Source: Verrucomicrobiota bacterium
GTDB taxonomy: Bacteria; Verrucomicrobiota; Verrucomicrobiia; Opitutales; Opitutaceae
Length of the DNA: 64,000 nucleotides
Assembly: GCA_963205455.1 (NCBI GenBank)
Contig: CAUJJL010000205.1
Location: 1 to 64,000, forward strand
Reading direction: 5' to 3'
The position numbers and the translations under genes are program-made. Below the pieces are notes generated by a model. The model was not told the origin of the DNA. It worked only from the letters and a program-made list of their open reading frames with translations, and made no database searches. Positions 11,652-55,718 of the stretch are shown in pieces; positions within the stretch are counted from its first letter, which is position 1, and every line of letters starts with the position of its first letter.

Positions 11652-14600
11652 TCAGTGGAGCTCATAGACTTCCGCGAGTACAATCCCCGTACTCGCGCCA
11701 TTTCCGCGAACGATAACCGTGTAGCCGCCGGAATTGAGCTTCAAGACAACCCCGGCATCTCGCGAGCCCGGATGAAGGGAAAAGGCGCCCGTCCGAGTGG
11801 CCGCCTCCGAAACATCGGTGGCTCCCATCCAATTGTCATTCTGGCGGATGATCGTGTTGCCCTGGTAGATTTCCAAGTAAGGATCTGTGACCACGCCAGC
11901 CACCCCATAGGCCGTGAGAGACGGGCCGACTCCGCGGATCAGAACCGTCCTGGGTCCGCCCGCAATCGTAAATCCCGCAATGAGGACATCATCTCCCGGT
12001 GATGAGCGGGCGCGCACAGAGAGATTGATCAAGCGGGAGGCTGCCGTCCCACCCGATGATTGAGCGTCGTAGATTTCAGCCAGAACAACACCCGAATCCC
12101 CCGCCACGCCCTGCGACTTACCAGCGGCTGAAATCTGTGCGGTATAGAGCCCTGGCGCGACCGAAGCCAACATCGCGGCGTCCTTCGAACCAGGAAGCAA
12201 TGCAAACGCCCCCACGCCTGTGGCCGAATCCGCAATTGCGGTTCCTCCACCCCAATCATCGTTCAAGGCAAGCACACTTCCCTGTTCCGAGCGAAGCGTC
12301 AGTTCTGGGTCAGACATTACACCCGCGACGTTGAACCCTTGAAGCCCAGGCCCTACGCCACGCAACAGAAGGGTTTTGCCATCTCCGCCCGATCCCCCCG
12401 CAACGACAAAACCCATGATCAGGCTGGCCTCACCCGCAGATGCCACCGCACGAACAGAAAGATTCGTCAGGCGACCCGTGCCGAAATCCGGATCGAGCAC
12501 CACAGCGTTGTCGAACCCTTCCTCCGATCGCCCCAGGCGCCGAACATTGTGACGGAGCTGCGGCCAGGGTCCTGACTGTCCCGAAGCTGCCCTAAGCCCG
12601 ACGTCGTAGGCGTACAGCCGACCATCATTGTTTCCCACATAAAGCCGCCCGCCCGCCAGCAAGACGGACGAGCGGAACCAGTTTGCACCGGCATACGTTC
12701 GCCTTGGTGTTCCGTCGCTGTTCACTTGGTGCACGGTCTTGTCGTAGCTCCCAATGAATACTGACCCATCCTGCGCAATCGCGGGCGACGATGCCCGCAC
12801 TTCATCGTTCATCAGGTAAGACCAGCGCACCACACCTGAATCCATGTCCAGCGCGTAGAGCCGATGATCATAGCTGCCAAAATACGCGGTTCCGTTTGCA
12901 AGTGCCAAAGACGAAGAGACAAACCCTCCGGCACTGGCGCGCCAACGCTGAACGCCACCCGCTGACACCGAAATGATCGTCCCATTGATCGACGCGAAGT
13001 AGACATTGCCTGCCGTATCGATCGCAGGCGACGAATACACCTGGCCATCCGTGGCAAATCGCCATTTCCTGGAGCCCGCAGGAGTCACCGCATGGAGCGC
13101 GCTGTCTCCGCCTGCGACGTAGACCGTACCATCTGCCGCGATGCTGGGAGATGCGTAACTCGCTTCCGCCCCGAAAGTGTAACGCCACTTGACCGTACCC
13201 GATGATCCGTCCAGCGCGACAAGCTGCGCTTCTGCATTTGCGATGGCGGTCCCCTTGTCGATGCGAATGTAGATCGTACCATCGGCGGCTATCGCCGGCG
13301 CGTTTGTGATGGGACCGCCAAGCGCGGCGCTCCATTTCAGGGTCGCACTGCTTCCGGCGTCAACAAGGGCGTAGAGGTTTCCATTCGATGCCCCGAAATA
13401 GATGACTCCCTGCCCGTCGATCGCCGCAACGCAGGTGTCAATCAGGCTCACAGGCACGATCGAATACCGCCATTTGACGCTGCCGTCAGATCCGTTGAAT
13501 GCATAAAAGCTCCCGTCGTTGGAGCCAACGTAGACGGTCCCATCAGCACCGATCACGGGAGAACTGGTGATGCTGTCGTTCGTCGCCGCGATCCACGCCG
13601 CATCGGTAAGCGTAAGCGTAAATTCGCCGTTCACCTCGGTAGTTCCGATGACTGCCGAATCGACGGCGATCAGATAGGTCGTCCCCGCCAGAGCATCGAA
13701 CCCCGCAATCGCATTGTTCACCTCTGCATCCGTCGCCGTGGCAACAGCCGAAGCAACCGCAACCAGCGATGTCAGCGAACTCCCTGTGTAGACGGCAACG
13801 ACCGGATTGAGCTGCGCGCTCATGACGGCTGCCTGGTATCGCGTCGAGGCGGGGGCCGTCCATCGATACCACAACGATCGCCGGGGCGAACGCCCCGCGT
13901 GGGCGGGTTCATTCGCCTGCGTCGACGCTTTGGCATTTGTCGCCGTCACCATCGGATTCATGCCCGAAAGGATCGTGGCCGACGCAAAATCATCATTCGC
14001 CGGTGACGCTCCCAGATTGAGGAGCAGGAGCCCTCCGGTGGGTGATTTGCCCCCGGCAGCAATTTGATACGTGCTGCCCGCCTGCGCGGTGAACGTGACA
14101 CTGCTCGCGACACTGTTGGCTGCATTGTCGTTGGAGGCTACGGGAACAAGATTGCCCAATTCGTTACCGGTGTAGACAGCGAGTACCGTATCGAAGGCGC
14201 TGCCCTGCGTGTCGATATTGACCAGACCTGAAACGGGGGCCGTCCAACTCCACCAGAGTGTTGCCTGAGGAACAAAACCAGCATGGCCCGGCTCTCCTGT
14301 CTCTGCGCCCGCGCCTGCAGACGTCGCTCGCACCTGAACGAGTTCACCCTGGAGCCGCGCCCGGGAGACAAAATCATCGTTGAATGGCCGAGTATCCAAT
14401 CCCGACAGCGCATTCGCCAGATTGAGGCGACCCCCGGTCTGGACGCGTCCGCTGTATTTCGCCACAGGGTCCACCGAGCGCAGGATGCGATTGATGGCCT
14501 GCCTGTAGTTGAATTCCGGATACCGTGCCCGCACGAGGGCGACCGCACCGGACACCTGCGGCGCGGCCATCGATGTACCGCTCAGAACAGCGTAGGAGCT

Positions 14601-15782
14601 GTCGCTCGCCTGCGAAAGTGACAGGATCTCGCTGCCGGGTGCGAACAGATCGACCGCTCCTGATCCGGTGTTGGACGATGTGGCAATGTCCTCAAGGCGG
14701 GTCGAATTTCCCACCGTGATGATGTTCTCCAGCGCATAGGTTGCTGGAAAGGTGCGGGCGACGTCCAGGTTCAATCCGTCGTTTCCGGCTGCTGCGACAA
14801 AGACGATCCCCGCATCCCGCGCCCTCTGAATTGCGGCAATTTCCGTCTGCGACGGCCCCTGTCCGGTGCTGAGCGCGCCATAGCTCGCGTTGATGACCTT
14901 CGCTCCGTTCGCAATCGCGTAGTCAATGCATTCAGCCGCGTCGGAAATGGATCCGCGCCCATCGCTCCCCAGAAACTTGAGTGCCATGATCTGAACCCGC
15001 CAGGCCACCCCGCTGACTCCGCGTCCGTTGTTGCCCACGGCGCCGATGATTCCGGCCACATGCGTGCCGTGCCCATTGTCATCCGTCGGCGTACCACTGC
15101 CCGCGCTTCCGGACGTAACCATCGAATTGATGCCGTTCACATCGTCCACAAAACCGTTGCCATCGTCATCCCGGCCATTGCCGGCAATTTCCCGCGAGTT
15201 TCGCCACAGGTTGGCGGCGATGTCCTCGTGGCTCGCCCGCACGCCGCTGTCAATCACCGCTACGATTACCGCGGATGCGTCCGTGGTCGTGTCCCATGCC
15301 TCAGGGGCATCAATGTCCGCATCGGGCGTGCCCGAACTTTGCCCCGTGTTGTTGAGTGCCCACTGTTCAGGCAGACGCGGGTCATTCGGCAGTGTCTGGG
15401 CCACCCGGATGTAGTCCGGCTCAACGAATTCGTAAAGACCGCTGGCGCGCAGCGATCGGATCGCATCGCGGACGGATGCACCGGAATTCAATTCCATGAC
15501 CTGCTGACGCTCCAGGTGTCGAAAGATCCGCTTTGAACGTATTCCTGCCTGTAACTCAGCCTTTGCAAAGGCCCCATCGGGACTTGTGCCTGAAATGACC
15601 GCCCCATCCCGCGCCCTCGCAAGAACGCGATCAGATCGAAAGCCTTGGCGCAACTCCACTTCGGAGAACGAGGATTCCCGGCCGAGCGTGCTTTCAGCGC
15701 CAGGGGCAGAGAGCACGCATGCAATGAAGAGAAGAGACGCCAGTGCTGCTGGACGGGTTGGGGTCAAGGGGTGAAAATGCAC
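11652..15782 (-). CDS. Secreted subtilisin-family (S8) protease with beta-propeller and two C-terminal modules
   Basis: This 1376-residue protein starts with a signal peptide (about 1-29). A propeptide-like segment (about 35-130) precedes the S8 catalytic domain with D178 (VIDSGV), H238 (NGHGTHVAG) and S404 (SGTSMAAP). Two related beta domains follow, each with a PxNDDF entry, WxWTAP and VYTG (roughly 470-730). Next comes a PQQ-like propeller with repeated units such as SSPAIDTAGNVYFAS and DGTVYVGSNDGSFYAF (about 735-1090), and finally two copies of the verrucomicrobial module (about 1105-1241 and 1251-1376, the last ending in LAEVYELH). All catalytic residues are intact. The substrate is unknown; the architecture suggests a surface-displayed protease. 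It converges on the anti-sigma gene. Confidence 0.9.
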   Translation of the reverse strand: MHFHPLTPTRPAALASLLFIACVLSAPGAESTLGRESSFSEVELRQGFRSDRVLARARDGAVISGTSPDGAFAKAELQAGIRSKRIFRHLERQQVMELNSGASVRDAIRSLRASGLYEFVEPDYIRVAQTLPNDPRLPEQWALNNTGQSSGTPDADIDAPEAWDTTTDASAVIVAVIDSGVRASHEDIAANLWRNSREIAGNGRDDDGNGFVDDVNGINSMVTSGSAGSGTPTDDNGHGTHVAGIIGAVGNNGRGVSGVAWRVQIMALKFLGSDGRGSISDAAECIDYAIANGAKVINASYGALSTGQGPSQTEIAAIQRARDAGIVFVAAAGNDGLNLDVARTFPATYALENIITVGNSTRLEDIATSSNTGSGAVDLFAPGSEILSLSQASDSSYAVLSGTSMAAPQVSGAVALVRARYPEFNYRQAINRILRSVDPVAKYSGRVQTGGRLNLANALSGLDTRPFNDDFVSRARLQGELVQVRATSAGAGAETGEPGHAGFVPQATLWWSWTAPVSGLVNIDTQGSAFDTVLAVYTGNELGNLVPVASNDNAANSVASSVTFTAQAGSTYQIAAGGKSPTGGLLLLNLGASPANDDFASATILSGMNPMVTATNAKASTQANEPAHAGRSPRRSLWYRWTAPASTRYQAAVMSAQLNPVVAVYTGSSLTSLVAVASAVATATDAEVNNAIAGFDALAGTTYLIAVDSAVIGTTEVNGEFTLTLTDAAWIAATNDSITSSPVIGADGTVYVGSNDGSFYAFNGSDGSVKWRYSIVPVSLIDTCVAAIDGQGVIYFGASNGNLYALVDAGSSATLKWSAALGGPITNAPAIAADGTIYIRIDKGTAIANAEAQLVALDGSSGTVKWRYTFGAEASYASPSIAADGTVYVAGGDSALHAVTPAGSRKWRFATDGQVYSSPAIDTAGNVYFASINGTIISVSAGGVQRWRASAGGFVSSSLALANGTAYFGSYDHRLYALDMDSGVVRWSYLMNDEVRASSPAIAQDGSVFIGSYDKTVHQVNSDGTPRRTYAGANWFRSSVLLAGGRLYVGNNDGRLYAYDVGLRAASGQSGPWPQLRHNVRRLGRSEEGFDNAVVLDPDFGTGRLTNLSVRAVASAGEASLIMGFVVAGGSGGDGKTLLLRGVGPGLQGFNVAGVMSDPELTLRSEQGSVLALNDDWGGGTAIADSATGVGAFALLPGSKDAAMLASVAPGLYTAQISAAGKSQGVAGDSGVVLAEIYDAQSSGGTAASRLINLSVRARSSPGDDVLIAGFTIAGGPRTVLIRGVGPSLTAYGVAGVVTDPYLEIYQGNTIIRQNDNWMGATDVSEAATRTGAFSLHPGSRDAGVVLKLNSGGYTVIVRGNGASTGIVLAEVYELH

Positions 15783-31209: not shown

Positions 31210-31252
31210 CCATTGATCCCCTTTTCACTGGCGCATGCCTCCTCTCACGGGT

Positions 31253-31257
31253 AGGAG
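31253..31257 (+). promoter_or_regulatory. Ribosome binding site deciding the tricorn start
   Basis: AGGAG lies 7 bases before the ATG at 31265, which is the first of two tandem ATGs. It supports 31265 over the in-frame ATG at 31235 and places the signal peptide at the very N-terminus. Confidence 0.7.
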
Positions 31258-31264
31258 CTTGGCG

Positions 31265-34200
31265 ATGATGAATCGGCTATCTCTTGTTTCTTTCTTCGCC
31301 CTCACACTCGCCACACTGCACGCAGCTCCGCCCCAGTTGACAGAAACGAGGCTGCTGCGTTTCCCCACCACCAATGGTGAGCAGATTGTGTTTTCCTACG
31401 CAGGTCAGCTCTACACGGTCGGCATGGCAGGAGGTACGGCGAGAAGGCTGACTGATGGCCCAGGCTACGCGATCTTCCCACGCTTCTCCAACGACGGTCG
31501 TCAGCTCGCATTCACCGCACAATACGACGGCAACACTGAAGTCTACGTCATGCCCTCCACCGGCGGGGTACCCCAGCGCCTCACCTATTCCGCCACACTT
31601 TCGCGCGACGACCTCGCCGACCGCATGGGACCAAACAACATCGTGATGACGTGGAAGAACAAATCTTCGGAGGTAGTCTTTCGCTCACGCTGGCGTTCCT
31701 TCAATCCCTTCATCGGGGAACTCTTCTCGGTCAAGCTAGACGCCGACATTCCCACTCAGCTTCCGGTTCCGCGCGGGGGTTTCGTCTCCTTCTCACCGGA
31801 TGACAGAAAAATCGCCTACAACCGCGTCTTCCGCGAATTTCGCACCTGGAAGAACTACAGGGGGGGCATGGCCGACGACATCTGGATCTACGACCTCAAG
31901 TCGGGCGAGATCGAGAACATCACCCAGAACGAGGCCCAGGACCTGTTCCCCATGTGGGCGCCCAACGGAAAGATCTACTTCGTTTCAGAGCGAACCGGAC
32001 GCGGAAATATCTTTGCGTACGAGATCAGCACCAGGAAAACCACGCAGATCACCCGCTTCACCGATTACGATGTGAAGTTCCCTTCGCTCGGCCGGGGTGG
32101 CATTGCTTTCGAACAGGCGGGGCGCATCTGGCTCCTGGATCTCACGAATGAACGCGTCACACCCGTGCCCATTCTCATCAAGGAGGATTTTGTCGGCGCC
32201 CGCGACAGCCAGATCAGTGTCGCTCGGATGCTTCAGGATGTCGACCTCTCGCCTGATGCGCAACGGCTAGCCGTCACTGCCCGCGGGGACATCTTTACAG
32301 CGCCAGCCAAGAACGGCCCCACGCGCAACCTCTCCCAAACATCAGGCGTTCATGAACGTGGTGCGGCTTGGTCACCTGACGGCAAGTGGATCGCCTATGT
32401 CTCGGACGCAACCGGTGAAACGGAACTCTACATCCGTCCCCAGGATGGAAGCGGTTCACCCACTCAATTGACCAACGGCGCCGACACCTATTACTACAAC
32501 CCAAGCTGGTCACCCGACTCCCGGAAGCTTGCCTGGTCCGATCGAAAACAACGGCTCCGCTCAGTGGATATCGAAACCAAGGTGGTCACTCTGGTTGCCG
32601 AAAATCCCGATGTGCCAATCCGGGATTTCAAGTGGTCTCCGGATTCGAAATGGATCGCCTGGACGCGCTCGACGCGATCCCACATCAGCCAGATCATGCT
32701 CAGCAACCTGACCGATGGCAGCGCGCTGGAGGCAACGGATGCCTGGTTCGATGCCAATTCCCCTGAGTTCTCCTCAGACGGAAAGTGGCTCGCCTTTGCC
32801 TCATCCCGCGATTTCAACCCCGTGTATTCCGCCACCGAGTGGAATCACGCGTACATGAACATGGAGCGCGTTTACCTGCTGGCACTGGCCAAATCCACCC
32901 TCTCGCCTTTTGCGCCCAGGAGTGATGAGGTGGCCATCGCCACCCAGGGGGAAAAGCCGGCAGCGGAATCGTCCGCGAAATCGAATGCTGACAAATCCAG
33001 CAACGGGAAAACGCCCGCCGACGGAGGCGAAGGCAGGAAGGATCCGCCCGCCCTTGTCATTGACGTCGACGGGCTGAAGCAGCGGGTCATCGGACTGCCG
33101 GTCCAGCCGTCAAACTACGGATCGATCCGCATCGTGGGAGACAAGGTCTACTACCGCCGAGTCCCATCCGGCCCTGTCACAGGCGGAGGCGGTGGAGAGG
33201 GCTTTGGCGCCGGCAGCCGCTCACGCGGCGTTGTTGCAATGTATAACCTGAAGGACCGCAAGGAAACCGAACTCGGTAATGCCGATGTTTTCGCCATCAG
33301 CCGTAACGAGAAAAAAATGCTCCTCCGCGTCGGACAGGACTGGTCGTTGATCGACACGCCGTCCGGCAAGTGGGATCTCAAGCCCGACAACCGGATCGAT
33401 TTCAGCGGGCTCGAAGTGAAGCTGGATCGCCACGCGGAATGGTCCCAGATCTTCAACGAGAGTTGGCGACAGATGCGCGACTTTTTCTACGCACCCAACA
33501 TGCACGGGGTCGATTGGTCGGCACAGCGCGAGAAGTACGGCGCCCTGCTGCCCTACGTCTCCACGCGGAACGATCTGACCTACATCATTGGAGAAATGAT
33601 TTCCGAACTCCACGTGGGCCACGCCTACGTCGGCGGTGGCGACCGAACCGAGGCTCCGCGCAAGCCCACCGGCCTTCTCGGCGCCCAGATATCACGCGAC
33701 GGAGAGAGCCGCGCCTATCGTATCGATCACATCCTTCCCGGTGAGAACTGGCAGACTTCCACCCGGTCCCCACTCACGGAAATGGGCGTCAATGTCAACG
33801 AGGGTGACTACATCCTCGCCGTCAACGGACAGCCCACCCGGGAGATGTCCAACCTCTACGCCGCCCTCACAGGCACCGTCGGCAAACAAGTCGTACTCCG
33901 CGTAAACGAGTTGCCATCGGATGAGGGCGCGCGCGACGTCACGGTCGTTCCCATCGCCGATGAGGCCCCGCTCTATTACGAAAGCTGGGTTCAGAAGAAC
34001 ATCGCCCAAGCCACAGAAAGGAGCAACGGCAAGGTTGGCTACCTGCACATCCCGGACATGGGTGTCGAGGGGCTCAATGAATTTGTGCGGCGTTTCTATC
34101 CGCAGTTGCGACGCGAGGCGCTGATCGTCGATGTCCGCGGAAACGGAGGTGGAAATGTCTCACCGATGATCGCGGAAAGACTCAACCGCGAACTGGTCAT

Positions 34201-34633
34201 GATCAACATCTCCCGAAATGGCAGCCCCTCGCCCAATCCGCCGGACCAACTTGTCGGGCCCAAGGTCACACTGATGAACGAATACTCAGCGTCGGATGGT
34301 GATATTTTCCCCTTCCGCTTCCGCAGCATGGGCATTGGCAAACTGATCGGCAAACGTTCATGGGGCGGCGTTGTCGGGATCAGCGGATCACTTCCCTTCG
34401 TCGACAATGGCACACTCATGCGCCCTGAGTTCGCCCCGTATTCCAAAGACGGAAAGACTTGGATCATTGAAGGACACGGCGTCGATCCCGACATCGTTGT
34501 CGACAATGATCCAGCCCGAGAATTCAAGGGGGAGGATCAACAATTGGACAAGGCCATTGACGTCATCCTCGAAGAACTCAGGTCAAAGCCCCAGGCGCTC
34601 CCGCAACCGCCGCCGTTCCCTGTCAAGAATTGA
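31265..34633 (+). CDS. Tricorn-like protease (S41B family), secreted
   Basis: The 1122-residue protein begins with a signal peptide (MMNRLSLVSFFALTLATLHA). Two beta-propellers follow, built from repeats such as YAIFPRFSNDGRQLAFTA and GAAWSPDGKWIAYVSD (about 25-560). A Ser/Lys/Asp linker (about 570-605), a helical C1 domain (NESWRQMRDFFYAPNMHGVDW), a histidine-bearing ELHVGHAYVGGGD segment, a PDZ domain (about 820-905) and the S41 catalytic core complete it. The core has VRGNGGGN and the nucleophile motif NEYSASDGDIF. Tricorn proteases degrade peptides released by larger proteases; bacterial forms are often periplasmic. The end overlaps hisC by 11 bases, tail to tail. Confidence 0.9.
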   Translation: MMNRLSLVSFFALTLATLHAAPPQLTETRLLRFPTTNGEQIVFSYAGQLYTVGMAGGTARRLTDGPGYAIFPRFSNDGRQLAFTAQYDGNTEVYVMPSTGGVPQRLTYSATLSRDDLADRMGPNNIVMTWKNKSSEVVFRSRWRSFNPFIGELFSVKLDADIPTQLPVPRGGFVSFSPDDRKIAYNRVFREFRTWKNYRGGMADDIWIYDLKSGEIENITQNEAQDLFPMWAPNGKIYFVSERTGRGNIFAYEISTRKTTQITRFTDYDVKFPSLGRGGIAFEQAGRIWLLDLTNERVTPVPILIKEDFVGARDSQISVARMLQDVDLSPDAQRLAVTARGDIFTAPAKNGPTRNLSQTSGVHERGAAWSPDGKWIAYVSDATGETELYIRPQDGSGSPTQLTNGADTYYYNPSWSPDSRKLAWSDRKQRLRSVDIETKVVTLVAENPDVPIRDFKWSPDSKWIAWTRSTRSHISQIMLSNLTDGSALEATDAWFDANSPEFSSDGKWLAFASSRDFNPVYSATEWNHAYMNMERVYLLALAKSTLSPFAPRSDEVAIATQGEKPAAESSAKSNADKSSNGKTPADGGEGRKDPPALVIDVDGLKQRVIGLPVQPSNYGSIRIVGDKVYYRRVPSGPVTGGGGGEGFGAGSRSRGVVAMYNLKDRKETELGNADVFAISRNEKKMLLRVGQDWSLIDTPSGKWDLKPDNRIDFSGLEVKLDRHAEWSQIFNESWRQMRDFFYAPNMHGVDWSAQREKYGALLPYVSTRNDLTYIIGEMISELHVGHAYVGGGDRTEAPRKPTGLLGAQISRDGESRAYRIDHILPGENWQTSTRSPLTEMGVNVNEGDYILAVNGQPTREMSNLYAALTGTVGKQVVLRVNELPSDEGARDVTVVPIADEAPLYYESWVQKNIAQATERSNGKVGYLHIPDMGVEGLNEFVRRFYPQLRREALIVDVRGNGGGNVSPMIAERLNRELVMINISRNGSPSPNPPDQLVGPKVTLMNEYSASDGDIFPFRFRSMGIGKLIGKRSWGGVVGISGSLPFVDNGTLMRPEFAPYSKDGKTWIIEGHGVDPDIVVDNDPAREFKGEDQQLDKAIDVILEELRSKPQALPQPPPFPVKN

Positions 34634-45328: not shown

Positions 45329-46186
45329 CTATGTTCCGGCCGAGCTTCGTGCCTCCCGACCCCGCTCGCGGTATTGGGACGGCGACAGGCCCACCGAGCG
45401 TGTAAAGGCTCGAATGAAGACATCCGCCGTATGGTAGCCCACTTGCGGCGCAATGGCATCAAGTTTGTCGTCCGTTCCGTGCAGCAACTCCTGCGCACGC
45501 TGGACCCGCATATAGGCGACCTGCGCCATCGGGGTCCTGCCCAATTCCCTCCGACACATGCGACGAAGATGCTCGGCACTCACGCCCGCCTCCGCGGCGA
45601 GCGAGCCCAGCTTCCAACCTTCGGCAATAGCCAAGGATACCCTCTCCCAAAGTGATGACAATCGAGATTTCGCCCGAGCAGGCTGAGCCACCCGCAGATT
45701 CAACCCGTGCAGAAGACTGATCCAATGGTGGATCATCGCGGCATTCCTGACACCCTCCCACTCCGCCTTGAGACCCGAGACTACCCGCCCGATTTCCTGC
45801 GCACCCTCCGCAACTCGCAAAGGAGAACGCGAATGCACGAGCGGCTGGACAGCTAAGGGCTCTTCGTAGCGGATCCACGCAAACGTCCACTGGCGGCGCG
45901 CCACCGCATGAAAGGCATTGAGGATTCGCGGTGGCGCCAGGCAAAGCTGTCCCGGCCTCACCACCTGCCAGCGTCCCTCCAAAAAGATGCGCCCCTCCCC
46001 CTCAAGACAGGCCAGCAGAAAACTCCCCGAGGGTGCCAGCCGCACACGGCGATACGGCGCAGCCACGGTGTCCAGCCCCAGCCATGCAATGCGATGGGTC
46101 GCCAATTCTGCACACTGGGCCCGGTCGAGACTCCACCGACGGGTGCGCGGGCCATCAACGGTTGTCTCTTTCCACTCGGGAATCAT
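45329..46186 (-). CDS. AraC-family transcriptional regulator
   Basis: The 285-residue protein has an N-terminal cupin-like sensing domain (about 30-130: GSFLLACLEGEGRIFLEGRWQVVRPGQLCLAPP) and a C-terminal AraC DNA-binding domain with two helix-turn-helices (WKLGSLAAEAGVSAEHLRRMCRRELGRTP and AIAPQVGYHTADVFIRAFTRSVGLSPSQYR). It is divergent from the operon starting at 46339, with 152 bases between starts, so it most likely controls that operon in response to a small molecule, perhaps a sugar. The inducer is unknown. Confidence 0.92.
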   Translation of the reverse strand: MIPEWKETTVDGPRTRRWSLDRAQCAELATHRIAWLGLDTVAAPYRRVRLAPSGSFLLACLEGEGRIFLEGRWQVVRPGQLCLAPPRILNAFHAVARRQWTFAWIRYEEPLAVQPLVHSRSPLRVAEGAQEIGRVVSGLKAEWEGVRNAAMIHHWISLLHGLNLRVAQPARAKSRLSSLWERVSLAIAEGWKLGSLAAEAGVSAEHLRRMCRRELGRTPMAQVAYMRVQRAQELLHGTDDKLDAIAPQVGYHTADVFIRAFTRSVGLSPSQYRERGREARSSAGT

Positions 46187-46338
46187 TTCGCGTTCGGGTG
46201 CAAAATCGTCGGTTGAATGTGTGACGCCCGCTCTTTTCCTTTGCGGGCATTCGCTGCAGGCTCAGGTGCTCACTGGCTCCCCGCAACGTCAAGCCGACAA
46301 GCGACACTCACCTCATTTTCCTTCATCTCTTTTTTCAC

Positions 46339-47214
46339 ATGCCCAATCCCTGGACTGGCAAAGGCAATCCCTACACGCGCGATGAAGTGCGCGCCCGTCT
46401 CGATGCCGTACTCGCGCGTCGCGAAGCCATCATCGCGGCCGGCGCCGGCACCGGAATCAGCGCCAAATTCATAGAGAAGGGAGGCGCTGACTTGATCATC
46501 ATCTACAACAGCGGACGCTTCCGCATGATGGGTCACGGTTCAACCTGCGGGCTGATGGCCTACGGCGATGCCAATGCCATCGCCATGGAGATCGGCGAAC
46601 ATGAGGTCCTCCCCGTTGTCGAGGAAGTGCCCGTCATTTGCGGCGTGCACGCATCGGATCCCCGCCGCCGCATGTGGCACTGGCTCGGCAGGATCAAGGA
46701 GATGGGTTTCTCCGGAGTGAACAATTTTCCGACCCACACGATTGTCGACGGACACTTTCGCCAGGTCCTCGAAGAGACAGGCATGAGCGTACAGAAGGAA
46801 TACGAAATGGTCTCTCTCGCCCGACGTATGGACCTTTTTTCAATCGTCTATGTCGCCACACCGGAGGAAGCGGTTGAAATGGCCAAGGCCGGAGCCGACG
46901 CCATCATCGCCCATGTCGGCACAACCGTGGGTGGCAGCATCGGAGTCACAAACGCAGTCGTCAGTTGGGACCACACGCTTGCCGTCACGCAGGACATCAT
47001 CCGTGCCGCGCGACAGGTGAGAAATGACATCTTTTTCCTCTGCCACGGCGGGCCTATCAACACCCCGCAGGATGCGGCGCGAGTCCTCCAGGGAACAGAC
47101 TGCGTCGGTTTCGTCGGGGCCAGCAGTCTTGAGCGCATGGGCGTGGAGGCATCCCTCACGGATCTGACGCGACGCTTCAAGTCAATCGCAGCCCCCGCGA
47201 TTGGAAAGCACTGA
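46339..47214 (+). CDS. Phosphoenolpyruvate hydrolase-family TIM barrel (Tm-1 C-terminal type)
   Basis: The 291-residue protein matches the TIM-barrel family annotated as PEP hydrolase-like (PF09370 type): IIAAGAGTGISAKFIEKGGADLIIIYNSGRFRMMGHGS, then GVHASDPRR, GFSGVNNFPT and HVGTTVGGSIG. In plants and fungi the same domain forms the C-terminal part of Tm-1-like proteins, fused to the UPF0261 domain. Here the UPF0261 partner is the fourth gene of the operon (52731). The reaction is not established for most members; it may act on a 2-oxo acid or enol phosphate. It is the first gene of the operon, divergent from the AraC regulator. Confidence 0.85.
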   Translation: MPNPWTGKGNPYTRDEVRARLDAVLARREAIIAAGAGTGISAKFIEKGGADLIIIYNSGRFRMMGHGSTCGLMAYGDANAIAMEIGEHEVLPVVEEVPVICGVHASDPRRRMWHWLGRIKEMGFSGVNNFPTHTIVDGHFRQVLEETGMSVQKEYEMVSLARRMDLFSIVYVATPEEAVEMAKAGADAIIAHVGTTVGGSIGVTNAVVSWDHTLAVTQDIIRAARQVRNDIFFLCHGGPINTPQDAARVLQGTDCVGFVGASSLERMGVEASLTDLTRRFKSIAAPAIGKH

Positions 47215-47223
47215 ACTCTCCAC

Positions 47224-47679
47224 ATGCCCACCACGGACCGATACTTTATCCAGAAATCGGATACACCGCGCGAGCCCAACGCGTGGACCGTGAACGAATG
47301 GCTCTGCAGGCCGGACCTTGTCGCCGCAGACAAACTGCTCCTGGTGCGGGCTAACATGGACCCCATGCACTGCCACCCGTTCCACATTCATCCGCACCGG
47401 GAGGAGATCATTTATGTGGTGAGCGGGCGGGCTGAACAATGGGTAGGCGGAGAATACCGGATCCTTCAGGCCGGCGAGATTGCGCACATCCCTCCGGGTA
47501 CGGTGCATGCAACCTACAATCCCCACGCGGAGCCTCTCGTCTTTCTCGCCATCCTCTCACCCGCCAACCTCCCTCCGACATTGGCGGCAGCGCCGGACCC
47601 TCAGGACATCTCCTCGGAGGAACCCTGGCACTCCCTGCGTCAAGAGCACGGCTTGCCCGCCTGCCGGATGCGCACGTGA
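47224..47679 (+). CDS. Cupin-domain protein
   Basis: The 151-residue single-domain cupin has metal-ligand candidates in HPFHIHPHREEIIYVV (cupin motif 1) and in IPPGTVHATYNP (motif 2, final His). The gene begins 10 bases after the TIM-barrel gene, so cotranscription is near certain. It may isomerise or bind a sugar-derived metabolite or serve as a sensor; the sequence does not say which. The C-terminal 25 residues are a variable tail. Confidence 0.85.
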   Translation: MPTTDRYFIQKSDTPREPNAWTVNEWLCRPDLVAADKLLLVRANMDPMHCHPFHIHPHREEIIYVVSGRAEQWVGGEYRILQAGEIAHIPPGTVHATYNPHAEPLVFLAILSPANLPPTLAAAPDPQDISSEEPWHSLRQEHGLPACRMRT

Positions 47680-47713
47680 TGCCTTGAGTCAAATCTCACC
47701 CATTTCATCCCTC

Positions 47714-50700
47714 ATGCCACGCCCTGTCGCCCTACTCCTCGCCGCTTTCCTCGCCATTGCCAGCCTTGTCGCCACGGCAGCCGAGGCACCGCTTCGCATC
47801 TTCATTCGGTCCGGACCAAAAACTCACGGTCCGGGCGCGCATGACTACCCGCGCTTCCTCAAGGAATGGGTTCCGCTGCTCAATGAGCGCGGTGCGCGTG
47901 CGACCGGAGCCAACGCCTTCCCGACAGCGGATCAACTCGCTGAAACCGATGTGTTGATCCTCCACGCCCAGGACGCTGGCACGATTGCTGCCGCGGATCG
48001 CCGCAATCTCGATGCGTTCCTGAAACGCGGCGGCGGATTGGTGGTGATTCACGCCGGCGTGGTTTCCAACGATCCCGATTGGTTCAAATCCATCGTCGGC
48101 GGTTCCTGGCGCAACGGAACCACACGCTGGCTCGAGGGGCCCATGCACCTGTACTTCATCGATCGCTTCGGGCCCATCACCCGAGATGTCTCGAATTGGG
48201 CGATGGACGATGAACTCTACTATGACCTCGACCTCTCCCCAGATGCCCACGTGCTGGCGACCGCCTATACGCCAAAACCGGGTGCCAGCTCAAACCCAAG
48301 GGTGCAGCAACGGGTAAGTGAACTGACCGCGGGCGGAAAAAGAGTCAGTATCTATGATATCCAGCCGCAAATGTGGACCTATGAGCGCCGCGTCGAAGGA
48401 GCGCTCAAACCGTATCGCGCATTCGTTTCCATTCCGGGACACTACTACGAGAATTTCAACCGGCCCAACTACCGCGCCATCCTGCTTCGCGGGATAGCCT
48501 GGGCGGGGCAGCGATCCAACGCTGACGAGCTCTGCCGCCCCGATGAGTTGGGCGACGCTCTTCGCTACGTCGAAGGCGGCCCCACACGCCCGGAAAAGGC
48601 GGCCGCCAAAATCGAGGTGCATCCCGATTTCAATCTGTCGCTCGTCGCCTCGGAGCCGCTGATCACCAAGGTGATGAATCTCGAATGGGACGAGAAAGGC
48701 AGGCTCTGGGTGTGCGAAACGCCCGAATACCCCAATGGACGCCGAAATGTGAACACGGCTCCATGGAAGGACAGCGGTTCACTCCATCCGGGCAATACCC
48801 AGCGCGATCCGGAAGACCGCATCTCGATCCTGACGGACACTGATGGCGACGGTGTAATGGACAAGCGCCAGGTCTTCGCCGACAAACTGGAACTCGCAAC
48901 AAGCTTCGTCCTCTATCGCAACGGGGTGATTGTGTCCGCCGCTCCCAACATCTGGTACCTACAGGACACCGACAATGACGGCGTCGCGGATCGTCGCACC
49001 CGGCTCTACACAGGCCTCGGAACGTTCGATGCCCATGCAGTGATCAACAACCTGCGCTGGGGGCTCGATGGGTGGATCTATGCGACACACGGATACAGCC
49101 GGGGCGAAGTGAAGACCGACGACGGGAAACATTCCTTTGGTTTCATCGGAAGCGGTGTCGTGAGATTCAAGCCCGATGGCACGGGTTTCGAACAGGTCAG
49201 CAGTCGCGGCGGAAACACCTGGGGACTCGCCACCACCTGGGATGGCCAGATATTCTGGACACAGCCGACGTCGGGAACAGTCCTGTTTCACACGGTCCTT
49301 CCGGAGCGGATCCTTGCGCTGGGGAAGGTGCCGGGAACGCCGTCCGCCAAGGGCATGATCGTCGGACAAAAAACCTATCCAGCGATTTCATGGCCCGAGC
49401 AGGCCTACGTCCAGATCGACCTGGTCGGCCAGTTCACCGCGGCGGCAGGCTGCGCGATCTACGAGGGGGGCGCCTGGCCTGACAAGTGGAACTACAGCTA
49501 CTTCACCACGGAGCCCACGATCAACATCGTGCACCACGAATTCCTCAAACCGGACGGGGTCAGCTACACGAGCGCCAAGGAAAAAGGCCGCGAGGAAACG
49601 GAGTTCGTTCGCAGCACAGACCTGTGGTTTCGTCCGATCGATACCCGCATCGGACCGGACGGCGCTCTCTACGTGATCGATTTCTACAATCAGGCCGTCA
49701 TTCACAATGATACCCGCGGCCCCACCCATGGCCCCACCAATGCGGCTGTTCGTCCGGATCGGGATCACTATTTTTCACGCATCTGGCGCATCCAGCACAA
49801 AGAGGCCCGCACTCTCACGCGTCCTGCTCTCGACCGAAATGACGTCGCAGGACTCATTCGCGTGATCCAGACGCATCCCAATTCGCAGGTGAAAAAAACA
49901 GCCTGGCGGCTCGCCCAGGAAACTCCTGAGGGAAACGCAGCCCTTGCCGCGCTTCACAAGCCCATCGGAAGCCTTGCTGAAGCCGAGTACTCAAAGGCAC
50001 TGGAAGCAACCTCGAGCACGGCACGCCGGGAATTCCTCAAGACTTTTGTCGCCGCCTCCGATGCGTGGACGCAATCGGCCGTCATCGCAGCCGCAACACA
50101 GCACGCAGCCCCCTACCTGATCGATGCCTTTGCGGTCTCCGCGAATGCCGGCCTGGATGTCCTCGTAACCGCGGTTGCTCCCTCGCTTCATTCTGATGAC
50201 CTTGTGGCCGTGCTTTCGGCGGCATCCTCCGCGAATTCCCCAGGCTCCCGACCGCTGAAACTCGCGCTGTTGCGATCGCTCGCCCAATCGCCCAAACTCA
50301 AGCCAAAGCCCGATCCCTCCCTCCTGGCCAGCCTCGGACACTTTCTCGAGGATGACGCCACGGCCTCCGCCGCCCTCCCGTTGGCCGAGTTGTGGGACAC
50401 CAACGACACTCTCGCCGCAATCCGTGGGCACGTCAGCAACACCCTGCAAAAAGCGCTCTCCGATTCCTCCCTATCAGATGAAGTGAGATCCGAGGCAGCA
50501 ATCAGCCTGCTGTCCATGCAACAGACCCAGGCCACTGCGATTTCCAGAATCCGCGATCTCCTCAGCTCGGACACGCTGTCGACAAAACTGCGTTCCGATT
50601 TCATCGATGCCATTGGAAATGTTTCGGGCGATATCGCCGCCTCCGCACTCGTTGAAGTATTCTCCAAGAACCACGCACCCGAGGCATTTGAACAGATTCT

Positions 50701-52714
50701 GAAGCGCCCGAAATTCGCGCTGGCGCTGCTCGCAGCCATCAAATCGGGATCGGTCGATGCAGGCGCGCTCGGGACCGTCAACGCATCACGGTTGCGTCGG
50801 CATCCCAATGCCCGTGTTTCCCGGGAGGCAACCAGCCTGCTCGCAACGCTGACTCCCGAGATCAAGGAGAAGAATCTACTCATCGCCCAACTGGCTCCCG
50901 AGGTTGAAAAACCGGGCGACCCGGTCAAGGGCCGTGCCATCTTCATGGCCGCCTGCTCGGTCTGTCATGCTCACGGTGACATTGTAGGCCGTCCTGTCGG
51001 CCCATCACTCACGGGCATGGGATCACATGGGCCCGCCGAATTGCTCACCCACATCATCGATCCCAATCGCGAGGTCGATCCAAGCTACCATCAATGGAAT
51101 GTCACAACCACGAAAGGAGAGAACTACGTCGGCGTGATCGTCTCGGAGAACTACCGCTCCATCACGCTGCGCAACCAGGGCAGCGATCATGAAATCCTGA
51201 AGGCTGACATCAGTCGTCGCGAAAATACCCACCGCTCCCTGATGCCGGAAGGATTCGAAGGCATCGGCGCCGAGGGACTTCGTGATCTGCTCGCCTACAT
51301 GTGCGGCAGCGACCGGAATTTTCGAGTGCTTGATCTCCGCAGTGCCTTCACTGCCGACAGTCGGCGCGGCATGTTCAAACGTGAGGATCTCGAAGACGAT
51401 GGTGTCACTCTCTCCCGTTTCGGTGATGTCTCCGTGGGCGGTCTGCCGTTTTCCGTTGTCGATCCGGCAAAATCCCCGACCGGACGCAATGTCATCGCCC
51501 TCAAGGGAGGAGCAGAGCCCGGAGATTTCTCGCAGGAATTCCCCCGCCGCGTGGAGATTCCCCTCTCGGTTGAGGCGAGCAGCCTGTACTTCCTCGGAGG
51601 AATTGGAGGAAATGCATGGCCAGCGGGTGGAGAAACCGCCCTCGGCATGCCCGTGATGAAGGTTACCGTGAGATTCGCGGATGGCAGCAACGAGGAATAC
51701 ATCCTCAGGAACGGCATCCAATTTTCAGATGCTGTCTCCAGAGTCGACGTCTCTGGTAGCATTGATGCTGGTCCCTTCACTCGAAGAGGTCAGCTCCGCT
51801 GCTTCGGCATCACGCTCTCAAAAAAGGCGCAACTTCGGGGCATTGTCCTTGAGAGCTATGACAACAAGGTGGTCCCATGTACGGTCGCCATCACTGTGAG
51901 TAACGAGGCCATTGCCTCCATTCCCTCCCTCAAGGAGAATGCCGTCACGTCCAAACACGTGCCCGCCTCCACAACCTGGATTGCCGGACCAAAGGAAGGC
52001 TGGAAGGGTGACGCGCCGCTTCCTCCATTGACCCCGGTGCAGTGGGAGTCGGGCAAGACGCGTGTCCTGCTGATCGGAGGAGGAAGCTCGCATGATTTCA
52101 GACGCTTCTTTGACAGGACCGACAGCGCCATCCTTCGCGCGGCAGGATTCACAACACATTACACGGAGGATCGCGATCAGGCAGCGCAGGCACTTTCGTC
52201 CGCGGACGTCGCAATCATCAGTGTCAATCGCCGCTTCTTTGATTTTCCCGCCTATCGGGAAGCACTGTGGCGATTTGCCGATGCGGGAAAGGGTATGGTC
52301 ATGCTGCATCCCGGGACCTGGTACGGCTATCCGCAATGGCCGGAGTTGAATGCCACCATCGTGGGCGGAGGGGCACGCGGCCATGACAAGATCGCACGTT
52401 TCTCGGTCAATTCAATCGTGCCGGACCATCCGGTCATGAAGTCCGTGTCCGCGTCCTTCAGCGTGGAGGACGAACTCTACTATTTCAATGCGGACAAGGA
52501 AAAGATTCCCGCGGGTACGGCATCCATCACGGTGCTGGCGGAGACTTCTCCATCAGTGAAATTTGGGAGACCCCATCCCGCCGTTTGGATCACCGCGCAT
52601 GACCATGCCCGCATTGTCGGGATCACCCTCGGCCACGATCAGCGCACCCACGATCATCCGGCATTTCAGCAACTTCTCATCAACGCAGTTCGCTGGACTT
52701 CCGGGAAACCGTAG
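47714..52714 (+). CDS. ThuA-dehydrogenase-HEAT-cytochrome c-ThuA multidomain protein (PVC type)
   Basis: The start at 47714 gives a signal peptide (about 1-22, ending ATAAEA); the frame upstream runs through the cupin gene. The 1666-residue protein comprises a ThuA-like domain (about 25-240, GGGLVVIHAGVVSNDPDWFKSIVGG), a PVC-type quinoprotein-like dehydrogenase propeller (about 300-740, LVASEPLITKVMNLEWD, then LWVCETPEYPNGRR), HEAT-like helices (about 740-1060), a cytochrome c domain with C1081-x2-C1084-H1085 and candidate axial M1177, a beta domain (about 1210-1420) and a second ThuA-like domain (about 1446-1666). It should be periplasmic, oxidise a sugar-type substrate and pass electrons to the haem. 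The substrate is unknown. Confidence 0.85.
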   Translation: MPRPVALLLAAFLAIASLVATAAEAPLRIFIRSGPKTHGPGAHDYPRFLKEWVPLLNERGARATGANAFPTADQLAETDVLILHAQDAGTIAAADRRNLDAFLKRGGGLVVIHAGVVSNDPDWFKSIVGGSWRNGTTRWLEGPMHLYFIDRFGPITRDVSNWAMDDELYYDLDLSPDAHVLATAYTPKPGASSNPRVQQRVSELTAGGKRVSIYDIQPQMWTYERRVEGALKPYRAFVSIPGHYYENFNRPNYRAILLRGIAWAGQRSNADELCRPDELGDALRYVEGGPTRPEKAAAKIEVHPDFNLSLVASEPLITKVMNLEWDEKGRLWVCETPEYPNGRRNVNTAPWKDSGSLHPGNTQRDPEDRISILTDTDGDGVMDKRQVFADKLELATSFVLYRNGVIVSAAPNIWYLQDTDNDGVADRRTRLYTGLGTFDAHAVINNLRWGLDGWIYATHGYSRGEVKTDDGKHSFGFIGSGVVRFKPDGTGFEQVSSRGGNTWGLATTWDGQIFWTQPTSGTVLFHTVLPERILALGKVPGTPSAKGMIVGQKTYPAISWPEQAYVQIDLVGQFTAAAGCAIYEGGAWPDKWNYSYFTTEPTINIVHHEFLKPDGVSYTSAKEKGREETEFVRSTDLWFRPIDTRIGPDGALYVIDFYNQAVIHNDTRGPTHGPTNAAVRPDRDHYFSRIWRIQHKEARTLTRPALDRNDVAGLIRVIQTHPNSQVKKTAWRLAQETPEGNAALAALHKPIGSLAEAEYSKALEATSSTARREFLKTFVAASDAWTQSAVIAAATQHAAPYLIDAFAVSANAGLDVLVTAVAPSLHSDDLVAVLSAASSANSPGSRPLKLALLRSLAQSPKLKPKPDPSLLASLGHFLEDDATASAALPLAELWDTNDTLAAIRGHVSNTLQKALSDSSLSDEVRSEAAISLLSMQQTQATAISRIRDLLSSDTLSTKLRSDFIDAIGNVSGDIAASALVEVFSKNHAPEAFEQILKRPKFALALLAAIKSGSVDAGALGTVNASRLRRHPNARVSREATSLLATLTPEIKEKNLLIAQLAPEVEKPGDPVKGRAIFMAACSVCHAHGDIVGRPVGPSLTGMGSHGPAELLTHIIDPNREVDPSYHQWNVTTTKGENYVGVIVSENYRSITLRNQGSDHEILKADISRRENTHRSLMPEGFEGIGAEGLRDLLAYMCGSDRNFRVLDLRSAFTADSRRGMFKREDLEDDGVTLSRFGDVSVGGLPFSVVDPAKSPTGRNVIALKGGAEPGDFSQEFPRRVEIPLSVEASSLYFLGGIGGNAWPAGGETALGMPVMKVTVRFADGSNEEYILRNGIQFSDAVSRVDVSGSIDAGPFTRRGQLRCFGITLSKKAQLRGIVLESYDNKVVPCTVAITVSNEAIASIPSLKENAVTSKHVPASTTWIAGPKEGWKGDAPLPPLTPVQWESGKTRVLLIGGGSSHDFRRFFDRTDSAILRAAGFTTHYTEDRDQAAQALSSADVAIISVNRRFFDFPAYREALWRFADAGKGMVMLHPGTWYGYPQWPELNATIVGGGARGHDKIARFSVNSIVPDHPVMKSVSASFSVEDELYYFNADKEKIPAGTASITVLAETSPSVKFGRPHPAVWITAHDHARIVGITLGHDQRTHDHPAFQQLLINAVRWTSGKP

Positions 52715-52730
52715 GCTCGCACAATTCCCA

Positions 52731-53963
52731 ATGCCAACGATCGCAGTGCTTGGCACCTACGACACCAAGGGCCAGGAATTGACCTTCCTGGGCGCGGAGA
52801 TCCGTCGGCAGGGATTATCAGTCATATCCATCGATGTCTCAACCCTGGCACACGACGGGCCTGGCGCTGATTTTCCATCCGATGCTGTTGCCGCCAGATC
52901 GAGTGTCGCGGAATGGAAGAAGGTTCTGGACCGCAGGGATCGCGGAGCATCCATCGCTCTCATGGGCGACGGAGCGGCCCGACTGCTGTCAGAACTCGCC
53001 ACCTCGGGCAGGATTCAGGGAGCCATTTCCATGGGCGGCGGAGGAGGAACCTCAATCGGCTCCACCGCGATGCACGCGCTTCCGTTCGGTTTCCCCAAAA
53101 TCATGGTGACCACGCTGGCGAGCGGAAACACCGCACCCTACATCGGCACCTCAGACCTCGTGCTATTTCCCGCTGTCGTCGATATAGCGGGATTAAATCG
53201 CATTTCGCGGATCACCTTCGAAAATGCCGCAGGTGCAATCTGCGGCATGGTCAATGCCGTCGGGCGCAGGACGAAGGCGACCTCGACGGACAAGCCGATC
53301 GTGGCAGCAAGCATGTTCGGCAACACCACAGCCTGCATCACCGAGGCAAAACGGTTTCTCGAGGAGGCAGGATACGAAGTGCTCGTCTTTCATGCAACAG
53401 GCACCGGGGGACGAAACATGGAGGCTCTTATCGATTCGGGACTGGTCTCCGCTGTGCTTGATCTGACTACCACCGAATGGGCTGACGAGCTTGTCGGAGG
53501 CATACTTTCCGCCGGCCCCACCCGACTCGATGCCGCGGCGAAACGCGGAGTACCGACGATCCTCGCGCCGGGGTGTCTCGACATGGTGAACTTCGGGGAG
53601 CCCAACACCGTGCCGCCCCGCTTCGCTGGAAGGCGTTTCTATCAGCACAATCCCCAGGCCACCCTCCTTCGCACGAACGCCGAGGAGTCCTCACGTCTCG
53701 GACGCATCCTTGCGGAAAAGGCGAACGCGCACAAAGGTCCTGTCCAGCTCTACCTGCCGCTGAAGGGCCTCAGCGCGATTGGAGAGCCAGGTCAGCCCTT
53801 TCACGATGCACAAGCCGACGCGGCGCTGTTCTCGGCGATTCGCGAGCATCTCAGACCCGGCATACCCTTGTTCGAACTGGACGCAGGCATCAACGATCGA
53901 TCCTTCGCCCAGGCATGCGCTCACGGGCTTCTGGAACTGCTCCATAAAACGTCATCTGCTTGA
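52731..53963 (+). CDS. Tm-1-like ATP-binding protein (UPF0261)
   Basis: The start at 52731 gives MPTIAVLGTYDTKGQE, the standard N-terminus; the open frame to 52563 lies in the upstream gene. The 410-residue protein has GTYDTKG (8-14), MGGGGGTSIGSTAM, the ALPFGFPKIMVTTLASGN block, then GMVNAVGRR and SMFGNTTACI, all typical of UPF0261. In the plant protein Tm-1 this domain binds ATP. Bacterial members commonly sit next to the PEP-hydrolase-type TIM barrel, as in this operon (first gene). The reaction is not known. It is 16 bases after the giant gene and ends the operon. Confidence 0.9.
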   Translation: MPTIAVLGTYDTKGQELTFLGAEIRRQGLSVISIDVSTLAHDGPGADFPSDAVAARSSVAEWKKVLDRRDRGASIALMGDGAARLLSELATSGRIQGAISMGGGGGTSIGSTAMHALPFGFPKIMVTTLASGNTAPYIGTSDLVLFPAVVDIAGLNRISRITFENAAGAICGMVNAVGRRTKATSTDKPIVAASMFGNTTACITEAKRFLEEAGYEVLVFHATGTGGRNMEALIDSGLVSAVLDLTTTEWADELVGGILSAGPTRLDAAAKRGVPTILAPGCLDMVNFGEPNTVPPRFAGRRFYQHNPQATLLRTNAEESSRLGRILAEKANAHKGPVQLYLPLKGLSAIGEPGQPFHDAQADAALFSAIREHLRPGIPLFELDAGINDRSFAQACAHGLLELLHKTSSA

Positions 53964-53982: not shown

Positions 53983-54384
53983 TCATGATCGATCGCTTTG
54001 CGCGAGGTGTTCGACCAGGACATGCGCTGTCGAAAGGTTGGTTGCAAGCGGGACATCATAGACGTCACACACCTTCATCAGCGCCGCGATATCGGGCTCA
54101 TGGGGGTGGGCGGTGAGCGGGTCTCGAAGGAAAATCACCGCGCGCACCTCGCCCGTTGCAACGAGCGCACCAATCTGAAGGTCGCCCCCGAGCGGACCCG
54201 AAAGCATGGCCGTCACCTTTATGCCCGTCTTCTCCTGCACAAGCGAACCCGTCGTCCGTGTACCGACGAGCCGCTGTCCCTCCAGAAAAGTGCGGTGTCG
54301 CTCAACGAAGGCAACCATCGCCTCCTTCCTTGCATCGTGAGCAATGAGTGCGACGTAGCGTGGCGGCTTGCCGGGCGCGTTCAT
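53983..54384 (-). CDS. mgsA: Methylglyoxal synthase
   Basis: This 133-residue protein carries the family motifs [24 protein letters not shown] (phosphate loop), [16 protein letters not shown] with the catalytic aspartate, and [15 protein letters not shown]. It converts dihydroxyacetone phosphate to methylglyoxal and phosphate, a bypass when glycolysis is phosphate-limited. The start codon overlaps the gltX stop by 4 bases (ATGA), so its translation is coupled to gltX, an unusual pairing. It converges on the UPF0261 gene. Confidence 0.94.
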
Positions 54385-55718
54385 TGAGCAGAAAGGGATG
54401 GTCCCATGATCCCAAGGAAACGCCGGATGCGCCGTCCGGCACGTTCGGGGCCAATGACCCGCAGAACCCCATAGAACGTCGGCCCCGCGCTGCCGCCGGA
54501 AAACGCGAAGCGCCCGGGGTGAATGTAGTCGGAGGTGCTCATTCCCTTTGATGCCGCCAGACCTTGCAACCAGGTCTCAAGCGAGGCATCCGATGAAAAA
54601 TCTGCTGACGTGAGTGCATCCAGAAACTCCTGCAGACGGGCGCAGGGATCTCCCTTGGACCGGATCTTTTCCGCGGACTTTGCATCGTAGGGGAAATCTT
54701 CCGTGAAGAAGTAGCCGATTGCCGCGGGCAATTCCTCTAGCGAGCGTACTTTGACCTGACAGAGCGCAAGCACAGATCGCAGGTATTCCTCCTCCGGGCG
54801 GTGGAGCGCGAGGAAACCTGTTCCACCGAGGTACTTTGCAGCCACGGCGTAGTACTGGTCGGGCGTCATGGCGTGCAGGTACGCCATGTTCATGTGCGCC
54901 ATCTTCTTCTCATCAAATCGCGCATTCCCCTGATGCACCGCGGGCAGATCAAAGAGGCGGATGATCTCCTCAATCGGCATCTTCTCCTGATCGTTCTTTG
55001 GAGACCAGCCCAGCAGACAGAGAAAATTCACCAGAGCCTCAGGCTGAAACCCTCGCCTCTGGTATTCTTCGATCAGCGCGCCCTGATCGCGTTTCGACAT
55101 CTTTCCTGGGCCATGCTGCTTCAGGATCAACGGAATGTGCGCATACACCGGCATGGGCGCACCGAATGCCTGAAACAACTCCGTGTGTTTGCTCGTGTTC
55201 GAAAGATGGTCCTCACCTCGGATCACGTGGGTGATCTTCATGGCGATGTCATCGACCACATTCACAAAGTGGAAGACGGGATTACCGTCGGATCGAATGA
55301 TGACAAAATCTTTTTCTTCGGTTCTTTCCACCCGACCCCGAATCGCATCGTCGATGATCTGCGGTTTACCTGAAATCCGGAAAAACGTAGCCCCTTCACG
55401 TTCATAGGTGCGCCCGGCGTCACTGAGCTTGTCGAGATAGGCACGATAAATGTCGGCGCGTTCGCTCTGGCGATATGGACCGAATCCTCCGCCAACAAGC
55501 GGTCCTTCGTCCCAGTTCAACCCCAGCCAGCGCAGGCTGTCATAGATCACCTGCAGGAATTCATCGCTGTTCCGCTCCTTGTCGGTATCCTCAATGCGCA
55601 GGACAAAGGTTCCCCCGGTGTGGCGGGCATAGAGCCAGTTGAAAAGTGCAGTCCGGGCGCTGCCGATATGGAAGAATCCGGTGGGACTGGGTGCGAAACG
55701 AACGCGGACGGGTGACAT
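54381..55718 (-). CDS. gltX: Glutamyl-tRNA synthetase
   Basis: This 445-residue class I synthetase has the HIGH-type motif [28 protein letters not shown], the KMSKS-type motif [12 protein letters not shown] and a helical anticodon-binding end. It is a little shorter than the usual 470-500. The zinc-binding cysteine set between the two halves of the catalytic domain is missing ([17 protein letters not shown]). Many bacterial GltX lack it. It overlaps mgsA by 4 bases. Start at 55718 is 50 bases from the divergent peptidase gene. Confidence 0.94.

Follow-up and report, generated by a model that had tools for sequence, protein, structure and literature searches.

The UPF0261 and TIM-barrel proteins that are the source of a plant antiviral protein, Tm-1, form a pair found widely among bacteria, archaea and fungi, and its ordinary function is at most just emerging. 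What the pair might do became a more tractable question at a locus of a Verrucomicrobiota bacterium, where its two genes enclose a small cupin gene and a gene for a very large protein. Here we describe this locus within a stretch of 64,000 nucleotides (contig CAUJJL010000205.1, hereafter the window), follow its gene set through related genomes, and weigh what the assembled parts could be for.

Organization of the cassette

The open reading frame list and translations, together with Pfam and NCBIfam matches, place a divergent AraC-family gene next to four plus-strand genes in the order TIM (the PF09370 TIM-barrel gene and its protein), cupin, giant (the 1666-aa ThuA-cytochrome protein) and UPF0261 (the PF06792 protein), with gaps of 9, 34 and 16 bp between the four. 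Genes, order and domains agree with the first-pass annotation of this DNA, and are listed below with the features of the intergenic region.

45329..46186, minus strand: AraC-family regulator, divergent from the operon (Pfam HTH_18 and AraC_binding; orthologs divergent from TIM in relatives)
46195..46240, no strand: conserved intergenic block, the strongest footprint in the DNA alignment of five genus members
46207..46223, plus strand: candidate AraC operator CRTC-N8-GTGKG, here CGTCGGTTGAATGTGTG (13/13 versus 0/20 intergenic regions, a descriptive count)
46339..47214, plus strand: TIM, a PF09370 TIM barrel ('PEP hydrolase-like'; Pfam; nearest solved structure 2p10)
47224..47679, plus strand: small cupin (Cupin_2; Pfam; conserved H54, H56, E61 and H95)
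47714..52714, plus strand: giant, putatively secreted, 1666 aa, with the order ThuA, DUF7133, HEAT-like, CxxCH heme domain, ThuA (Pfam, NCBIfam)
47714..47785, plus strand: signal-peptide-like leader of the giant (read by eye from the sequence)
48590..49804, plus strand: DUF7133/TIGR02604 domain of the giant (Pfam, NCBIfam)
50915..51301, plus strand: TIGR02603 putative heme-binding domain of the giant, with CSVCH at residue 1081
52127..52699, plus strand: C-terminal ThuA domain of the giant (Pfam)
52731..53963, plus strand: UPF0261 (Tm-1-like ATP-binding) protein (Pfam PF06792 and PF23189, NCBIfam, fold match)

The giant passes the Pfam cut-off of the ThuA family (PF06283) in two stretches (E 6e-49), matches DUF7133 (E 2e-131), and passes the cut-offs of both NCBIfam models for 'PVC-type heme-binding CxxCH' proteins (TIGR02604 and TIGR02603), its only heme motif being the CSVCH listed above. 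Its earlier description as a ThuA-dehydrogenase-cytochrome protein fits the ThuA and CxxCH parts, though there are two ThuA domains, and 'dehydrogenase' overstates a central domain that is DUF7133/TIGR02604. The two ThuA domains distinguish the giant from other PVC-type CxxCH proteins, as does the finding of its orthologs only in TIM-bearing genomes. Heme proteins of the PVC type number dozens per genome and, to our knowledge, have almost no known partners. The N-terminus of the giant, MPRPVALLLAAFLAIASLVATAAEA, is signal-peptide-like, and no other cassette protein has a leader of this type (both read by eye, not by a predictor), which supports the original suggestion that the giant would be periplasmic and TIM, cupin and UPF0261 cytosolic. 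In the cupin, the conserved residues correspond to a 3-His-1-Glu set and would fit a metal site.

Several other genes of the window deserve mention. Convergent with the end of the operon lies a methylglyoxal-synthase-like gene (PF02142; 53983-54384, minus strand), which shares 4 bases with the end of the gene for glutamyl-tRNA synthetase (54381-55718, minus strand). Elsewhere, a gene at 11652-15782 (minus strand) encodes a protein of 1376 aa in which a subtilase domain precedes PQQ-type propeller repeats, and one at 31235-34633 (plus strand) encodes a tricorn-protease-like protein that combines a PD40 propeller with PDZ and S41 peptidase domains.

Conservation of gene order and of the regulatory region

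By tblastn of the individual parts we found the order TIM-cupin-giant-UPF0261 across the whole genus, some copies being cut by contig ends, and again in two other genomes (G034 and G051); elsewhere pairs occurred without the giant. UPF0261 is present in 10/10 genomes of the genus, where a contig end truncates one copy, and also in some of the family's other genera. In one genome (G026) the C-terminal ThuA domain of the giant and UPF0261 lie at a contig end, and a different contig carries both TIM and giant. Absence of the cupin or the giant from the neighbourhood of the Tm-1 pair in close relatives had been named as evidence that would speak against the unit, and both genes are present throughout the genus.

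The operon also recurs across the phylum Verrucomicrobiota. Our relatives sample consisted of 80 loci with the TIM clade, kept from a scan of GTDB genomes and placed in the phylum by their titles and layouts, and the same-order co-occurrence that we looked for appears in exact form, on one strand, at 20 of the 80, with further loci cut by contig ends. Variants include loci where the cupin is missing or where UPF0261 stands ahead of the giant. Two isolates, Verrucomicrobium sp. BvORR034 (L137) and Luteolibacter marinus (L135), are among the bearers of these genes. The titles of four loci (L107, L115, L067 and L074; Klebsiella pneumoniae, Proteobacteria, Akkermansia muciniphila) are unlike their Verrucomicrobiota-type TIM and neighbours, and these are probably misnamed metagenome bins. 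Five other loci (L077, L089, L094, L100 and L110) have TIM followed by two small cupins, with neither a window-type giant nor UPF0261 close by, and in these lineages the cupin may be the more constant partner. In one genus member (L029, G002:C241, 8054-9058) the TIM and cupin genes are each broken by a frame change, reflecting either draft sequencing error or decay.

Between the AraC and TIM genes, DNA alignment of five genus members revealed a strongly conserved block. Within it lies the 17-base motif CRTC-N8-GTGKG, which we propose as a candidate AraC operator. All 13 intergenic regions that adjoin an orthologous AraC (over 58% identity) contain it, against none of the 20 with a non-orthologous AraC and roughly 0.9% of shuffled intergenics; the 13/13 is descriptive because the motif was set after inspecting the same loci. 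Scans of the sequence for sigma-70 promoters and terminators gave results no richer than shuffles. Kept order, short gaps and the AraC footprint together bear out the view of the cassette as one regulated unit.

Distribution of TIM, UPF0261 and the giant

In the genus and family, TIM and UPF0261 occupy an identical set of 17 out of 61 genomes, the remaining 44 having neither. UPF0261 was likewise found in 41/41 selected genomes, in 2 or 3 copies where TIM has 2 or 3 (G311, G314). The giant is nested within this distribution, since its ortholog (here DUF7133 at 64% identity or more) occurs in 14/61 genus-plus-family genomes, always with TIM and UPF0261. At the level of the phylum 22/384 genomes have a match to the giant (E 1e-120 or better), and all 22 have TIM, linked or not, against a baseline of 23/289 sampled phylum genomes with PF09370 (about 8%). 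In three genomes (G261, G264 and G273) the giant lies away from TIM, so that the association is more than physical linkage. As the genomes are related, these co-occurrence counts are not independent samples.

The wider DUF7133 family was found within 7 kb of PF09370 at 16 of 20 phylum-sample loci, on the same strand at 15, against 1.36 expected from genomic density, and counted by genus at 9/11; on this excess we reject chance adjacency. On the other hand, two findings count against the catabolic reading proposed below. DUF7133 genes number 13-41 per genome where present (there are none in G211), so that the family itself is not specific, and about one third of TIM loci are without a DUF7133 gene nearby. 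We distinguished type A neighbours, which are window-like giants, from type B, which are more distant DUF7133 proteins; on a tree of 99 TIM proteins type A neighbours change at least 16 times and type B 8 times, indicating that the association arose or changed repeatedly.

Relationship to Tm-1 and to other ATP-dependent systems

TIM matches PF09370 over its full length (E 1e-103), and the UPF0261 protein carries both the N-domain (PF06792) and UPF0261_C across its whole length (E 2e-57 and 6e-88). The predicted UPF0261 model (mean pLDDT 84.8) matches the folds of tomato Tm-1, to which the protein is about 40% identical over its length, and of 9mpy, which is Saro_1862 with bound acetovanillone (34% identity). 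The TIM model is weaker (mean pLDDT 66.5) and has a TIM fold. Among solved structures 2p10, which has no known activity, matches it best, and beyond this our search for an enzyme relative by sequence and fold returned generic TIM barrels.

Plant Tm-1 and Tm-1-like proteins are fusions of UPF0261 with a 'TBST' TIM domain. Both domains are present in the cassette, but as separate genes with TIM first, with the cupin and the giant between them, and outside any antiviral context. The first-pass annotation had pictured two halves of a Tm-1 protein split around other genes and had placed the fusion in plants and fungi. The fusion, however, is a feature of charophytes and land plants, while bacteria, archaea and fungi generally have separate, co-evolving genes (PMC5028733), so that the plant part of that statement holds and the fungal part does not. 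We reject a broken fusion, and the 'split protein' picture is misleading, because separate genes are the usual state.

Pairs without the giant are widespread in rhizobia, haloarchaea and other Verrucomicrobiota. A UPF0261-TIM-cupin trio adjoins sugar ABC transporters on pRL12 of Rhizobium johnstonii, and the archaeon Halostagnicola has the trio in the order TIM-cupin-UPF0261, which matches that of the cassette. These relatives thus share the two families, and often a small cupin, but lack the ThuA-cytochrome giant, with ABC transporters in its stead in Rhizobium. In G001 one gene joins a PF09370 TIM barrel to a sigma-54 activator and an HTH (L035:4311-5990, plus strand). It is divergent from a second TIM/UPF0261 pair and could possibly encode a ligand-sensing paralog of the enzyme.

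A comparison with small-molecule kinases was also made. HpeHI/AcvAB resemble the pair as two-component, ATP-dependent kinases encoded in catabolic operons. HpeI, however, is an ATP-grasp and HpeH a swivel-type protein (PMC12167813), Pfam found neither kind of domain in TIM or UPF0261, and we reject the identification of the pair with this aromatic kinase since it is built from unrelated protein families. A closer relative may be MarK, the single-component kinase with which acetovanillone catabolism in Novosphingobium (N. aromaticivorans) is reported to begin (PMC13101465). From the ligand, the organism and the authorship we infer that MarK is Saro_1862, which as a UPF0261 homolog has the same fold as the cassette protein; the latter differs in having TIM as an obligate partner.

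A proposed route and its alternatives

The operon is probably a sugar- or glycoside-oxidation pathway. At six related loci (L116, L090, L139, L141, L143 and L144) the giant neighbouring TIM has PF06439 (3keto-disac_hyd) before DUF7133, followed by HEAT, laminin-G and cytochrome domains, and in L141 and L143 ThuA precedes PF06439. Near these loci are also genes for a sulfatase, TonB receptor, Gfo/Idh/MocA protein, xylose-isomerase-like protein, aldose epimerase, SSF symporter, FMN dehydrogenase and Dabb protein. Among the members of PF06439 are BT2157, which hydrolyses 3-ketotrehalose, and a proposed 3'-ketolactose hydrolase; what becomes of 3-keto-sugars in the periplasmic 3-keto pathway has been described as unknown (PMC9007349). 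It is mainly the presence of PF06439 in these neighbouring giants that leads us to favour 3-keto-glycoside chemistry.

We tentatively propose, at a confidence that falls a little short of even, that the cassette is an AraC-switched catabolic unit with activities inside and outside the inner membrane. In the order of steps that we infer, the giant, with its two ThuA domains, propeller-like DUF7133 and heme c, would be secreted and would oxidise or open a glycoside outside the cell, most likely via 3-keto-sugar chemistry, and would pass the electrons to its own heme. The resulting keto-compound would enter the cell, where the metal cupin may tautomerise or isomerise it, UPF0261, most likely a small-molecule kinase, would use ATP to act on it, and TIM would finish the conversion, for example by C-C cleavage.

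Several observations count against this proposal. Pfam found no PF06439 in the window giant or elsewhere in the cassette, neither a dehydrogenase of the Gfo/Idh or LacABC type nor a transporter is encoded there, and the ligand of the solved UPF0261 structure is an aromatic ketone rather than a sugar. With the periplasmic 3-keto-glycoside pathway (LacABC/DUF1080; BT2157) the system shares ThuA, a secreted redox protein and, in the giants of related loci, PF06439, but it differs in lacking PF06439 and LacABC at the window and in bringing a cytosolic Tm-1 pair that is new to the pathway. Because PF06439 is absent from the window cassette we do not claim its membership in that pathway. The original suggestion of sugar or keto-sugar chemistry accordingly remains the leading reading through PF06439 in the giants of several relatives, although the window giant itself does not carry the domain.

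The same acetovanillone ligand makes an aromatic or aryl-glycoside substrate possible, and the giant might instead strip the sugar from a plant phenolic glycoside via a 3-keto intermediate, leaving UPF0261 and TIM to phosphorylate and process the aglycone inside. The presumed role of Saro_1862 as MarK would suit such a route, as would the small A/B-barrel Dabb proteins adjoining some pairs and the 3-keto beta-elimination known for flavonoid glucosides (PMC10628242). We nevertheless consider it rather unlikely, given that the cassette and scanned neighbours hold no carboxylase, CoA ligase, dioxygenase or ring-cleavage gene, that the neighbours are mostly of sugar type, and that identity to Saro_1862 is just 34%.

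That PF09370 and UPF0261 form an ATP-dependent metabolite sensor module with the giant as its regulated target is suggested by the sigma-54 activator fusion in L035 and by an older annotation of PF09370 as a 'TIM-barrel signal transduction protein'. Yet TIM and UPF0261, as stand-alone proteins, carry no output domain, the cassette already includes a regulator, AraC, which has a footprint of its own, and such strict association with cupins and transporters suggests metabolism, all of which makes sensing improbable. Least credible, and in our judgement highly improbable, is linkage without function, whereby abundant PVC heme proteins simply came to lie beside an inherited Tm-1 pair. DUF7133 genes are indeed numerous and descent within clades accounts for much of the linkage, but the excess over the roughly 1.4 loci expected, several independent gains on the TIM tree, and co-occurrence that persists where giant and TIM are unlinked all argue otherwise.

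Implications

All parts of the cassette come from known families, and their conserved combination and nested distribution are absent from the literature we searched, where, as first surmised, no pathway or gene set of this composition was found. Returning to the sugar-oxidation reading, its most specific form is a route so far undescribed in Verrucomicrobiota, in which a secreted ThuA-cytochrome would make and split 3-keto-glycosides and an obligate two-protein, ATP-dependent Tm-1 pair would consume the 3-keto-sugar or aglycone. We hold this form to be doubtful. The cassette is nonetheless a concrete candidate for the missing fate of 3-keto-sugars, and it links one orthologous group of PVC-type heme proteins to specific cytosolic enzymes. 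Its association of the UPF0261/TIM pair with a putatively secreted redox protein, a metal cupin and a specific candidate AraC site also narrows the substrates to a small, testable set. If true, the proposed route would show what becomes of 3-keto-sugars and, at the same time, which biochemical function was ancestral to Tm-1, the virus-resistance protein of plants.
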